Origin: Pseudomonas sp. LS.1a
GTDB taxonomy: Bacteria > Pseudomonadota > Gammaproteobacteria > Pseudomonadales > Pseudomonadaceae
Reading direction: 5' to 3'
Assembly (NCBI RefSeq): GCF_022533585.1
Contig: NZ_CP092827.1
Location: 2,272,001-2,336,000 of the forward strand
DNA: 64,000 nt
Positions 36,724 to 42,007 of the stretch are shown here, one piece after another. The number at the start of each line of letters is the position of its first letter. The first letter of the stretch is position 1. The notes beneath the pieces are model-generated. The model saw only the letters and a program-made list of their open reading frames with translations. It was not told the DNA's origin and ran no database searches. Made by a program: the position numbers and the translations under genes.

Positions 36724-37590
36724 ATGTCGAATTTCCGTGGTATCTGGGTCGCCCTCGTCACGCCATTGCGCGCCAATGAAATCGACTTTACTGGCCTGGA
36801 AAAACTGGTGAAGAAGCTGCTCGAAGAGGGTGTCGCCGGTTTTGTGGTATGTGGCACCACGGGCGAAGCGGCGGCGCTGTCCAAGGCCGAGCAACTGGCC
36901 GTGCTGGACGCTGTGCTGGCCTGGGTGGAACCGGGCAGGGTGGTGATGGGCCTGTCGGGTTACAACCTGTGCGAACTGTTGGCCTTCCAGGCTGAAATCC
37001 AGCAGCGTGAAATTGGCGGGCTTCTGGTCCCTGCACCGTGCTACATCCGGCCTTCGCAGGCCGGCATCGAGGCGTTCTTCAGCACCGTGGCGGATGCCGC
37101 CAGCGTGCCGGTGATCGTCTACGACATTCCCTACCGTACCGGGGTACGCATCGAGCGTGAAACCCTGCGCCGCATCGTGCGCCACCCGCGCATTGCAGCG
37201 GTGAAGGACTGCAGCGGTGATAGCGAGACCACCATGGCCCTGATCCAGGACGGCCACGCCCAGGTGCTGGCCGGTGAGGACGTTCAGATCTTCAACAACC
37301 TGTGCCTGGGCGGTGCGGGGGCCATTTCGGCTTCGGCGCATGTGCGGGCTGACCTGTACGTGCGCATGTTGCAGCAGGTCGACCATGGCGACTGGCTAGC
37401 CGCGCGAGGGACGTTTTACCAGTTGCTGCCGTGGATGAAAATGGCCTTTGCCGAGCCTAACCCGGCCGTGATCAAGGCAGCATTGCAGATGCAAGACCTG
37501 ATTGCTGACGAGCTGCGCGAGCCCATGCAGGCCTGCACGGAAACCACCCGGGGCAAGCTGCAAGGCGTGCTGGACTCACTCGGCGCCTGA
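36724..37590 (+). CDS. DapA-like dihydrodipicolinate synthase/aldolase family protein
   Basis: 288 aa class I aldolase of the DapA family. The substrate loop GTTGE is at residues 44-48, the tyrosine/arginine block reads YDIPYRTG, and the Schiff-base lysine is in AAVKDCSG near residue 162. The arginine of YDIPYRTG is the one that binds the dicarboxylate in true DHDPS, which favours 4-hydroxy-tetrahydrodipicolinate synthase activity, but N-acetylneuraminate lyase-like paralogues are hard to exclude by eye. It stands alone after the cellulose operon and converges with a GNAT gene, overlapping it by 15 bp. Confidence 0.85.
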   Translation: MSNFRGIWVALVTPLRANEIDFTGLEKLVKKLLEEGVAGFVVCGTTGEAAALSKAEQLAVLDAVLAWVEPGRVVMGLSGYNLCELLAFQAEIQQREIGGLLVPAPCYIRPSQAGIEAFFSTVADAASVPVIVYDIPYRTGVRIERETLRRIVRHPRIAAVKDCSGDSETTMALIQDGHAQVLAGEDVQIFNNLCLGGAGAISASAHVRADLYVRMLQQVDHGDWLAARGTFYQLLPWMKMAFAEPNPAVIKAALQMQDLIADELREPMQACTETTRGKLQGVLDSLGA

Positions 37591-38740: not shown

Positions 38741-40435
38741 TCAAGCTGCCGTAGCCACGACCGGCCTGGCCTCGCCGATCAGGATATCCTCGAAAAACGC
38801 TCCGACCGGCTCGGTAGGGTGGCACAACTGAATCTCCAGCACCCACACCACCTCGCTCGGGACGATTTCCACCTCGGCCAGTTTGTCCTGCCCATACAGT
38901 ACATGCGGGAAGTCGGCGATGCGATGCCCAGCCAGGTTGCGTTCCAGCTGCCAGCCTTTCGCCTGGGCACTGCGCTCGGCGAAGTCATACAGCTCGCGCC
39001 CGGTCAGGCCACGCCCCCAGGCCTGGCGGGTTTCGTCGAACACTTCATGCAGTGCCTTGACGCAGGCGTGGTGCAGGTCGTGCTGGCCAAACACGAAGGT
39101 GTCGCCATAGTCGCCTTCATAGCCATCCCATACCGGGCCGACATCGACCACGACGATATCCGTGGTACGTAATACGCGTTGCAGATCAATACCTTGGCGC
39201 GGCGTGCGCACGGTGTCGTCGCCAAAACGGATGTAGGTCGGGTGCCAGGTGTGCGATGCGCCCATCGCCTGCAAGGTCTGTGCGGCCATCTCCAGCGCCT
39301 GGGCAGTGGTCATCCCGACTTGTAGCTGGCTGGCGATCGCCGCCACGGCCCGTACCGATTGCTCGCGGGCCGCGAGCATGCCGTCCAGCGAGTAGCGCGA
39401 GCCGACTTTTTCCAGCACCGGGTGCAATGGGTTGGTCGTTGAAGCCTCGGGCACCAGTGCGCCGCTGGCAACGAAAGCCTCGGCGACAAAGCGATGGGGC
39501 TGCAGGCCTGCCGCGAGGCACTGCTCGCGAGCCTGGCTGATCATCGCGGCATTACCGCAGGCATAGACCTGGGTGTCGGCCCAGCGATGGGCCTGGGCCA
39601 GCGCCACCTGCTGCACCCGCGCCTGGTCCGACAGCACCGGGTGCCAGTGAAAGTGAGCGTGTGCACGGCAGGCCTGGTCGAGAAATTCACGGTCATAGAA
39701 GTCTGCGTTCGATCTGCCGCCCCAGTACAACGTGACCTCGGCATCACCTGCCAGGGCGGTCAGCAGCAATGGCTTGATGCCGGCGTAACCTGTACCGGTG
39801 GCGAACAGCACCAGGGGGCGTTGGTCCTCATGCTGCCAGGTGCAGGCACCCACCGGTCCTTCAAGCTTCAAGGTGTCACCTGCTTGCAGGGTTGGCAGCA
39901 GGTGTTCGGTAAACAGGCCGCCACTGACCTTGCGGATGTGAAACACCAGTTGCCCCTGGTCCTGGGCGGGCAGGTTGGCGATGGAAAAACAGCGGCTGTC
40001 GCCGTTGTCGAGCCGAAAGCGTACGTACTGGCCAGCCCGTACCACCAATGGCTGTGCAGGCTGCAGCACCAGTTCGACGATATCGGCGCTCAGTTCGCGT
40101 TTGCCGCGGACCTGTGCCTGGAGTTCCAGTGCCGGGGTTTCCAGGGACCAGCCGGGAATTTCCAGGCACATATCACTGCAGGCGTGGCTCTGGCACAGCA
40201 ACATTTCGTCGGCTGCCAGGGGGTAGCAGGGCGCGGGCGTGTCTGCTGCCCGCTGCTTGTCCCGATACTGCCCCGACACCACCTTGACCTTGCACGATCC
40301 ACAGGCGCCGCGGCGGCAGGAGAAGGGTACCGGCAGGCCGCTGGCGAGCATGGCATCGAGCAGCAACTCCTGGCTGGCGTCGAAGGTTTTGCCCGAGGGC
40401 GACAATTCAATGACATGGCGGTTTTGCATGAGCAC
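38741..40435 (-). CDS. Fusion of [2Fe-2S] ferredoxin-NAD(P)H reductase and M24-type metallopeptidase domains
   Basis: 564 aa uninterrupted frame. Residues 1-90 are a plant-type ferredoxin with C40, C45, C48 and C81. Residues about 100-320 are a flavin/NAD(P)H reductase with FAD motif RCFSIANLP, nicotinamide motif FATGTGYAGIKP and terminal YACGNAAM, as in phenol hydroxylase or CDP-6-deoxyglucoseen reductases. Residues about 348-564 have an M24 (methionine aminopeptidase/prolidase) fold with all five metal ligands in order: D431, D442 (the expected 11 apart), H504 plus H511 (the expected 7 apart), E534, E549. I know no standard enzyme with this arrangement. It may join redox chemistry to cleavage of a C-N or amide-type bond. 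It is divergent from a MocR regulator. Confidence 0.85.
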   Translation of the reverse strand: MLMQNRHVIELSPSGKTFDASQELLLDAMLASGLPVPFSCRRGACGSCKVKVVSGQYRDKQRAADTPAPCYPLAADEMLLCQSHACSDMCLEIPGWSLETPALELQAQVRGKRELSADIVELVLQPAQPLVVRAGQYVRFRLDNGDSRCFSIANLPAQDQGQLVFHIRKVSGGLFTEHLLPTLQAGDTLKLEGPVGACTWQHEDQRPLVLFATGTGYAGIKPLLLTALAGDAEVTLYWGGRSNADFYDREFLDQACRAHAHFHWHPVLSDQARVQQVALAQAHRWADTQVYACGNAAMISQAREQCLAAGLQPHRFVAEAFVASGALVPEASTTNPLHPVLEKVGSRYSLDGMLAAREQSVRAVAAIASQLQVGMTTAQALEMAAQTLQAMGASHTWHPTYIRFGDDTVRTPRQGIDLQRVLRTTDIVVVDVGPVWDGYEGDYGDTFVFGQHDLHHACVKALHEVFDETRQAWGRGLTGRELYDFAERSAQAKGWQLERNLAGHRIADFPHVLYGQDKLAEVEIVPSEVVWVLEIQLCHPTEPVGAFFEDILIGEARPVVATAA

Positions 40436-40446
40436 CTCGGGGCAAA

Positions 40447-40491
40447 TGGAGGTTCGATTGTTGCTATAGTCCAGGACCAGTAGAACCTCCA
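40447..40491. promoter_or_regulatory. Inverted repeat between the reductase/peptidase gene and its MocR regulator
   Basis: TGGAGGTTC at 40447-40455 and GAACCTCCA at 40483-40491 are perfect reverse complements with a 27-bp spacer that contains TATAGT (40465-40470), a -10-like sequence. The whole intergenic region is only 72 bp, so both divergent promoters must overlap this site. Binding by the adjacent MocR protein is likely but inferred. Confidence 0.6.
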
Positions 40492-40507
40492 GTTTTGGTT
40501 AATTCAC

Positions 40508-42007
40508 ATGGTCCAGCTTCGCAAATGGCAGCCGCTGCTCAAGCTCGACGGGGCGCAGCCGCAGGCTTCGTACAGGCAGATTGTCGAGGGCCTGGTCGCC
40601 GCGATCACCGAGGGCCGCCTGCGCCCCGGCACGCCGTTACCCGGCACGCGGGAAATGGCGCAACTGCTGAACGTCAATCGCAAGACGGTGATCCTCGCCT
40701 ACGAGGAAGCCGAGACCAAAGGCTGGCTGGAAAGCGTGCAACGCCGCGGCACCTTCGTCAGTCGGCAACTGGCAGTTGGCACCCTGCCCGAGCCCGATGC
40801 AGCGCGGCCCTTTGCCCTGGTGCTGCCAGAGGAGCCTGCCGTTGCCTACTTCACGGCCAACGAACAGGCTGCCGCGCAGCAGCATCGGCCGGGTGCGCTG
40901 TTTTTCGACAACGGCGCCTGTGACCACCGCCTGCTGCCGCAGACCGTTCTGCACCGCTATTACCGTAATGCCTTGCGCAACAGCTTCACCGCCAACACCG
41001 TGCGCCATGGCAGCGCGTGCAGCAGCCATTACCTGCGCAGCGCCTTGGCCGACATGCTGCGGCACAATCGCAGCCTGAACGTTGGCGCCGAGCATATCTG
41101 CCTGACCCAGGGCGTGCAGATGTCGCTGTACCTGGTGGCCAGCGTGCTGCTCAAGCCCGGTGACGTTGTGCTGGTCGAGCGCTTGAGCTATCCGCCCGCG
41201 TGGGAGATCTTCCGCCAGCTGGGTGCCCGGCTGGTCACCGTGGACCTAGATGACGAGGGCTGCCGGGTCGACCAGATCGATGCACTGTGCCGGCTGCACA
41301 AGGTGCGCATGCTGTACATCACACCCCATCACCAGTTCCCGACCACGGTCAGCCTGCCTGCCGGGCGCCGGCAGCAGTTGCTGGAGCTGGCGCGGCAGCA
41401 CGACTTTTGCGTGGTCGAGGAAGACTACGACCATGAGTACCACTTTGCCGGGCGGCCTTACCTGCCGCTGGCCAGCGACCGTCAGCAGCGGCATGTGATC
41501 TACATTGGTTCATTGTCCAAGTCCTTGGGCAGTACCTTCCGTTGCAGTTTCATCGTGGCGCCGGCGGAGGTGGCCGTGGTGCTCGAGCGCAGGGCGACGC
41601 TGACCCTGGGGCAGGGCGATGCGGTGATGCAGCAGATGCTGGCGGACCTGATCAATGATGGCGAGCTGAAGAAGCACTTGCGTCGGGTTGCGCGGGAGTA
41701 TCGTCAGCGTCGGGAGACCCTGTTGGCTTGCTTGCGCGATGCCTTTGGCGAGCAGGTAGCTGTAAAGGCACCGGAAGGCGGGCTGGCGCTGTGGGTGAGG
41801 TTTGCCGACTCGATCGATGTGGACCAACTGGTTGGCAAAGCGCTGGCGTTGGACCTGGTGGTACGCAGTGGCCGGCAGTTTTCGCCGTTCGGTCATGCGG
41901 AAAATGCCTTGCGCCTGGGGTTTGCCTCGCTGGACATGGATGAAATCCGGCTGGCTACGCAACGTTTGGCGCAAGCGGCGAAGGCGATTGCAACATCGGC
42001 CCTGTAG
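40508..42007 (+). CDS. MocR-type regulator: GntR HTH plus aminotransferase-like domain
   Basis: 499 aa. The N-terminal GntR winged helix (about 20-85) includes GTPLPGTREMAQLLNVNRKTV, then the PLP-dependent aminotransferase fold class I with the internal-aldimine lysine in GSLSKSLGSTFR and ITPHHQFPTTV. MocR proteins (GabR, PdxR, TauR) sense an amino-type ligand through PLP and control a divergent gene. Here the divergent target is the reductase/M24 fusion at 38741-40435, hinting that its substrate is amino-acid-like. Confidence 0.92.
   Translation: MVQLRKWQPLLKLDGAQPQASYRQIVEGLVAAITEGRLRPGTPLPGTREMAQLLNVNRKTVILAYEEAETKGWLESVQRRGTFVSRQLAVGTLPEPDAARPFALVLPEEPAVAYFTANEQAAAQQHRPGALFFDNGACDHRLLPQTVLHRYYRNALRNSFTANTVRHGSACSSHYLRSALADMLRHNRSLNVGAEHICLTQGVQMSLYLVASVLLKPGDVVLVERLSYPPAWEIFRQLGARLVTVDLDDEGCRVDQIDALCRLHKVRMLYITPHHQFPTTVSLPAGRRQQLLELARQHDFCVVEEDYDHEYHFAGRPYLPLASDRQQRHVIYIGSLSKSLGSTFRCSFIVAPAEVAVVLERRATLTLGQGDAVMQQMLADLINDGELKKHLRRVAREYRQRRETLLACLRDAFGEQVAVKAPEGGLALWVRFADSIDVDQLVGKALALDLVVRSGRQFSPFGHAENALRLGFASLDMDEIRLATQRLAQAAKAIATSAL

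Follow-up and report, generated by a model that had tools for sequence, protein, structure and literature searches.

A ferredoxin reductase fused to an M24 pita-bread domain in Pseudomonas and Betaproteobacteria, and a tentative case for the M24 site as its electron acceptor

The window, a stretch of 64,000 nucleotides from Pseudomonas sp. LS.1a, encodes a true fusion of a [2Fe-2S] reductase with an M24 domain. A single uninterrupted open reading frame at 38741..40435 on the reverse strand begins with GTG and yields a protein of 564 residues, in which four Pfam domains (Fer2, FAD_binding_6, NAD_binding_1 and Peptidase_M24, in that order) were each matched above the curated cut-off, confirming the intact fused frame described in the original prediction. 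One M24 subfamily is accompanied by two [2Fe-2S] NAD(P)H reductases of different build, and the common denominator is a reductase together with an M24 domain. The reading preferred here, which is tentative and falls somewhat short of probable, is that the M24 domain may be the terminal electron acceptor of a dinuclear-metal redox enzyme, probably O2-activating, that would act on an amino compound.

The fusion gene and its divergent regulator

The N-terminal plant-type [2Fe-2S] ferredoxin domain, Fer2, spans residues 11-85 (40181..40405, as all parts of the gene on the reverse strand) and scored 53.2 bits against a cut-off of 21. It is followed by the FAD-binding domain at residues 108-199 (39839..40114; 43.0 bits, cut-off 21.1) and the NAD(P)-binding domain at residues 211-303 (39527..39805; 37.1 bits, cut-off 22). 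A linker of low confidence, residues 325-348 (39392..39463; pLDDT below 50 in the full-length model), joins the reductase to the pita-bread domain Peptidase_M24 at residues 352-552 (38780..39382), where a score of 76.8 bits against a cut-off of 23 upholds by profile search an assignment that had been made from the residues. The full-length structure model had a pTM of 0.49 and left the orientation of the modules unfixed. The ferredoxin cysteines named in the original prediction, C40, C45, C48 and C81 (C-x4-C-x2-C...C), were invariant in all 44 rows of an alignment of chosen fusions sharing 45-94% identity with the window protein, as were R148 and S151 of the FAD domain and G214-T215-G216 and C293-G294 of the NAD domain. 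Both the Fer2-FAD-NAD order and the four cysteines are those of oxygenase reductases.

A divergent gene at 40508..42007 on the forward strand encodes a MocR-type regulator comprising a GntR helix-turn-helix and a PLP-binding Aminotran_1_2 domain, with Lys338 in an SLSK motif. A script scan of 78 fusion loci (L009-L085 and L087) placed a MocR gene divergent and adjacent in 74, with two loci near a contig end and two without. One of these two, L082, does possess the regulator, so that the regulator gene borders the fusion in 75 of the 76 loci that could be tested, and the description of the gene as the fusion's own regulator holds. The window regulator scored 333.7 against a cut-off of 320 for the NCBIfam PdxR equivalog; the PdxR name is possibly over-broad, given that the neighbour conserved beside the gene is the fusion. 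In the single testable exception, L081, the genes upstream of the fusion on its own strand encode a RidA-like protein and a 4-hydroxyphenylpyruvate dioxygenase, the dioxygenase gene being approximately 100 bp away. On the other strand of that locus (L081:8110-11728) lies a gene resembling class III extradiol dioxygenases, with a score below cut-off.

The 72-bp divergent intergenic region contains a putative operator-like block, CCAAAACTGGAGGTTCTNNTGGTCC (40474..40498, reverse strand), which was largely kept in 56 aligned regions, nearly all of them from Pseudomonas. At up to three mismatches, the only match in the window genome was the block's own site and no remote target of the regulator was found; this is a weak test, because a reversed pattern used as control was likewise matched once.

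Genes flanking the fusion in the window encode an alpha/beta hydrolase, a GNAT protein, a DapA-like protein, a LysR regulator and an SDR, and include no oxygenase, in agreement with the original prediction. On clustering the neighbours of the fusions, MocR was the only general gene; the next clusters occurred in no more than 24 fusion loci and reflected synteny of related strains. No oxygenase was general among the clusters listed, and a hidden oxygenase partner nearby was rejected on these grounds. With MocR as the sole general neighbour among these clusters, the fusions have no further electron acceptor generally encoded alongside. The DapA-family protein (36724-37590) scored 230 against a dapA equivalog cut-off of 206.15, and its cluster was present in only nine of the loci examined.

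A second architecture and the M24 active site

A search with the M24 protein of locus L132, covering lengths of approximately 0.55-1.75 times 230 amino acids, returned 1084 proteins, 120 of which were listed. Members of the same M24 subfamily with a separate reductase gene directly upstream on the same strand were found at 20 loci in 19 genomes, two of them of the window's genus. These MocR, reductase and M24 gene sets are new in this analysis. The MocR gene lies divergent beyond the reductase in 19 of the 20 loci, within approximately 360 bp in 17; it is farther away at L207 and, in broken form, at L241, and there is none at L205. Pfam gave the order FAD-NAD-Fer2 for the reductases of L132 and L249, and the others align to this type of reductase by tblastn. 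Ferredoxin cysteines in 19 of the 20 split loci follow the spacing C-x5-C-x2-C...C, the twentieth (L229) being frame-broken, as against C-x4-C-x2-C in 44/44 fusions. When the MocR of L132 was compared with the window genome, the window MocR was the best of the matches (373 bits, 41%) and the next of 27 reached 217 bits; the regulators of the two architectures look orthologous on this sequence comparison. A clean separate origin of the fused and split M24 lineages was not sustained, as an AU test did not reject a single origin of the reductase association in the M24 tree (p 0.169). The independence of the two architectures hence rests on the reductases and not on the M24 tree. A sequence search of the split M24 against the PDB gave chance-level matches only; a profile search did better.

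In Pseudomonas, the pair at L249 (L249:10272-19335 with L250:689-2143; also L205) lies in a cluster with a homologue of SznF, of an N-nitrosating enzyme family (369 bits to PDB 6m9r). The cluster also encodes a PRMT-like methyltransferase, an ATP-grasp protein, an MFS transporter and alpha/beta hydrolases. As a lead, this puts the reductase and M24 pair beside N-oxidation chemistry on amino-acid derivatives.

The M24 site was compared in an alignment of 147 rows (56 + 22 fused, 16 split and 53 standalone) drawn up without short or broken rows and L205-L208. Four of the five metal ligands (D431, D442, H504 and E534) together with H398, H511 and E440 were present in 147/147 rows, and the fifth ligand, E549, in 146, with one gap; the complete metal site including H511 that had been read from the window protein is upheld. 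In a set of 125 rows that included short ones, H398, H504 and E534 were kept in 124 and E549 in 123, and L205-L208 keep E440 and the Asp that follows it.

The C-terminal part has the pita-bread fold and matches prolidase and methionine aminopeptidase (MetAP) in fold. Compared with prolidase (1wy2, 1pv9) and MetAP (1xnz), the GHG motif is rewritten as GHR (typically GHRx[AS]DFPH; GHRIADFPH in the window), E440 takes the place of H, C, N or Y, and there is no N-terminal creatinase domain; Pfam gave no match to the latter in the window protein, which has the reductase in its place. Of five alignments to PDB relatives, the three that reach the motif show GHGVG. R505 of the rewritten motif occurs in 143 of the 147 rows, namely all 94 that are reductase-linked, 47 nearer standalone rows and two of six distant ones. 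E440 lies two residues before the second Asp ligand, at a position occupied in the five PDB relatives by H, C, N, Y and Y. The window protein lacks both an equivalog-level score to the characterised M24 peptidases (MetAP I, prolidase and aminopeptidase P) and their GHG motif. Only MetAP models matched its M24 part, far below cut-off (NCBIfam met_pdase_I, 36.9 bits against 171.35; 40.0 with the M24 domain alone), and the suggestion of a creatinase-like C-N hydrolase found no support in the sequence.

M24 genes without such a reductase alongside were examined at 57 places, and nearly all keep the metal ligands; the M24 site is therefore not specific to redox partners. Columns separating reductase-linked from standalone M24 domains were sought and set aside as a class, since fused and split rows share seven diagnostic columns and control groupings of the fused rows with each of five standalone clades share 6, 3, 0, 1 and 0, the six belonging to the standalone sister clade. 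For this reason only Tyr401, three residues after H398, is worth following: in a post hoc comparison it was present in 94 of 97 testable reductase-associated M24 domains (76/78 fused and 18/19 split; exceptions L078, L083 and L205) and in none of 55 standalone ones.

The M24 genes nearest the split group but without a reductase (L135, L171, L191 and L192) have nearby a GlxA-type regulator (DJ-1_PfpI plus AraC by Pfam on L171), mostly on the other strand, instead of MocR. A distant M24 relative on a Pseudonocardia plasmid (L197) lies beside formate dehydrogenase and cyanase genes.

The M24 site as candidate electron acceptor and the alternatives

If the preferred reading is correct, the fusion protein would be a self-sufficient redox metalloenzyme. 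NAD(P)H would reduce the FAD of the middle module, and single electrons would then pass through the N-terminal [2Fe-2S] domain to the dinuclear metal site of the M24 domain, most likely Fe2 or Mn/Fe. Once reduced, this site may activate O2 or another oxidant, and a small amino compound, presumably the same one that the PLP-binding MocR senses as inducer, would be oxidised. A flavin module supplies hydride equivalents, and a [2Fe-2S] domain is kept where a metal centre takes single electrons, as in reductases of the BenC, MmoC and GcoB type. Because both architectures keep the [2Fe-2S] domain and no metalloprotein other than the M24 domain is a general partner, the M24 site is favoured as the acceptor; retention of the cluster in both is more easily squared with a metal centre that takes the electrons than with a reductase that accompanies a hydrolase. 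The departure of the active site from that of the peptidases (GHR and E440) is further support. Against it stand the 57 M24 places without a reductase, the similar column counts for the split rows and the standalone sister clade (seven and six), and the GGACT genes described below.

A familiar M24 fold may thus do oxidation chemistry, since relatives of the fusion combine the domain, again under a MocR-type regulator, with an electron module of quite another build. It is conceivable, with more doubt than confidence, that the pita-bread fold here serves as an O2-activating dinuclear oxygenase, in which case dinuclear monooxygenases would gain a new fold class, one that acts on amino compounds and is controlled by MocR. 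Equally guarded is the proposal that such an enzyme would be fused in Pseudomonas and Betaproteobacteria and would, in other lineages, have its own gene next to that of a different reductase. To our knowledge, the M24 pita-bread fold is known only from hydrolases and lyases. In CYP116B P450s, which are self-sufficient, Fer2 and flavin reductase modules are fused to a metal-containing terminal partner; the terminal partner of the window fusion is an M24 pita-bread domain and not a haem domain. No paper on an M24 or pita-bread oxygenase, or on M24 with ferredoxin and MocR, was found in the text searched, which took in the abstract and passages of the MocR regulon survey PMC5320631, and the combination of pita-bread with monooxygenase led only to work on aminopeptidase P and prolidase. 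The M24 and reductase architecture was not found in the papers searched.

AibH2, PtmU3 and SfbO are amidohydrolase-fold dinuclear monooxygenases (PMC10811679, PMC7782822). SfbO was reportedly discovered by the logic of reductase neighbours that is used here (PMC10811679), the genes of AibH2 and SfbO travel with a [2Fe-2S] electron donor, and AibH1H2 acts on an amino acid (PMC10811679, PMC7782822). The likeness lies in a dinuclear metal site on a hydrolase fold, predicted for the window M24 domain. The differences are that these proteins belong to PF04909, that their donor is a Rieske ferredoxin and that oxygenase activity has been shown for them and is here proposed; Pfam gave PF00557 only for the M24 part of the window protein and no match to the amidohydrolase-related fold. 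If the M24 site accepts electrons, an unrecognised redox branch would exist in a hydrolase superfamily routinely labelled 'aminopeptidase', paralleling the amidohydrolase-fold proteins found to include dinuclear monooxygenases, and a reductase partner, Tyr401, GHRx[AS]DFPH and E440 would offer a simple diagnostic. The question lends itself to a direct test with one expressed gene, since a single polypeptide carries the whole fusion and has a regulator gene of its own.

An unlikely but substantial alternative is a bifunctional protein whose M24 domain is a true metallohydrolase, an amidase or C-N hydrolase, and whose reductase performs, or supplies electrons for, a redox step of its own on that amino compound. 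The preserved metal ligands and both histidines, the fold match to prolidase and MetAP and the existence of standalone relatives would all suit such an enzyme. A gene of the GGACT family (PF06094), which is gamma-glutamylamine cyclotransferase-like, follows the M24 gene on the same strand, 13-46 bp downstream between match ends, in nine of the 57 standalone loci (L119, L124, L139, L140, L141, L172, L174, L189 and L239) and five of the 20 split loci (L233-L237); Pfam was run on three of all these standalone and split loci. L132 has a class-I GATase gene downstream instead. These genes fit amide chemistry and a hydrolase, and suggest amide or gamma-glutamyl substrates. Both the GGACT and the class-I GATase families include enzymes that cleave gamma-glutamyl amides, and a gamma-glutamylated amine is therefore possible as the substrate. 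No gamma-glutamylamide synthetase was detected near the loci in a signature scan, and no GGACT gene lies beside any of the 78 fusion loci scanned for it (the window and L009-L085). The single GGACT homologue of the window genome (70%) is located away from the fusion, next to a gene that we take to be comM. Hydride reduction requires a flavin module alone, and the conserved [2Fe-2S] domain implies a one-electron metal acceptor; no other such acceptor is generally encoded beside the fusion, and the peptidase motif is lost. The coupling of redox and hydrolytic steps put forward in the original prediction accordingly stands as one of several possible readings and is not the favoured one, since the [2Fe-2S] domain is kept in both architectures.

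It is decidedly less probable that the reductase works for an oxygenase from another place in the genome, with the M24 domain as an independent hydrolase of that oxygenase's product, the two sharing only their regulation. In sequence, the N-terminal half is closest among PDB entries to the three-domain reductases GcoB (5ogx, 112.9 bits) and BenC (1krh, 75.7 bits), which have in common with the window protein the Fer2-FAD-NAD order and the cysteines, and which serve a separate P450 or Rieske oxygenase. The window protein differs in its C-terminal M24 domain and scored 132 against a cut-off of 430 for NCBIfam BenC. The dioxygenase gene preceding the fusion at the exceptional locus L081 and the SznF homologue, itself a metal oxygenase, that is clustered with the L249 pair would suit a remote or separate partner. 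Among the neighbour clusters listed, however, no oxygenase travels generally with the unit, and the genome has a single copy of the operator-like block, although as a test for remote targets this is weak.

Very unlikely, too, is reductive maintenance, in which the M24 domain would be an Fe(II) hydrolase or lyase of the DddP kind that is inactivated by air, and the reductase would keep or restore its ferrous state. Four domains and a dedicated regulator would be an expensive provision for repair, and we know of no M24 enzyme that needs a dedicated reductase. The DMSP lyase DddP has an additional N-terminal domain. This M24-related enzyme has a binuclear, mainly iron centre and uses an M24-type ligand set for non-peptidase chemistry, as a lyase without a reductase, unlike the window fusion; both DddP and MetAP can hold iron (PMC4108388). 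Standalone forms would, under such a scheme, be less exposed to oxygen.

Distribution of the fusion

A protein search returned 319 homologues, and 116 of the 120 listed carry all four domains, the remaining four being without Fer2 or NAD_binding_1 in the precomputed domain list. All four domains were present in 44/44 chosen members from Pseudomonas and Betaproteobacteria in a separate Pfam scan. The best 80 matches of a genome scan gave at least 79 loci, comprising 78 fusions, of which L087 is frame-broken, and one remnant, L086. The hosts are Pseudomonas, Achromobacter, Variovorax, Herbaspirillum, Roseateles, Comamonas, Paraburkholderia and one record named Pantoea. Within the window's genus a full-length fusion was found in 10 of 89 genomes, its own included; the window genome has one full-length copy, and nine further matches span the reductase half only. 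An assembly or frameshift artefact, a single-genome fusion or a functionless chance fusion has a negligible likelihood, because the fusion reappears, its sites all intact, in several genera and in separate assemblies, and 44/44 chosen members have four domains, and the window itself gives no sign of one, broken frames being seen in single relatives (L087, L229). The domain order, for which a survey had been proposed, is conserved across genera.

None of 405 plasmid records with a match covers 80% of the fusion at a single site; M24 relatives are present on 13 plasmid records. Frames are broken in single genomes in the reductase of L229, the MocR of L241 and the fusion of L087. At L086 (L086:10001-10495) a truncated M24 fragment stands alone, sharing 84% identity with residues 388-546 of the window protein. 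It comes from Pseudomonas sp. K2I15, a strain that has a full fusion as well, at L017, and is apparently a remnant copy. Two records among the plasmids, NZ_CP119142.1 and NZ_CP119140.1, are labelled Neisseria gonorrhoeae and, at approximately 2.17 Mb, look like chromosomes.
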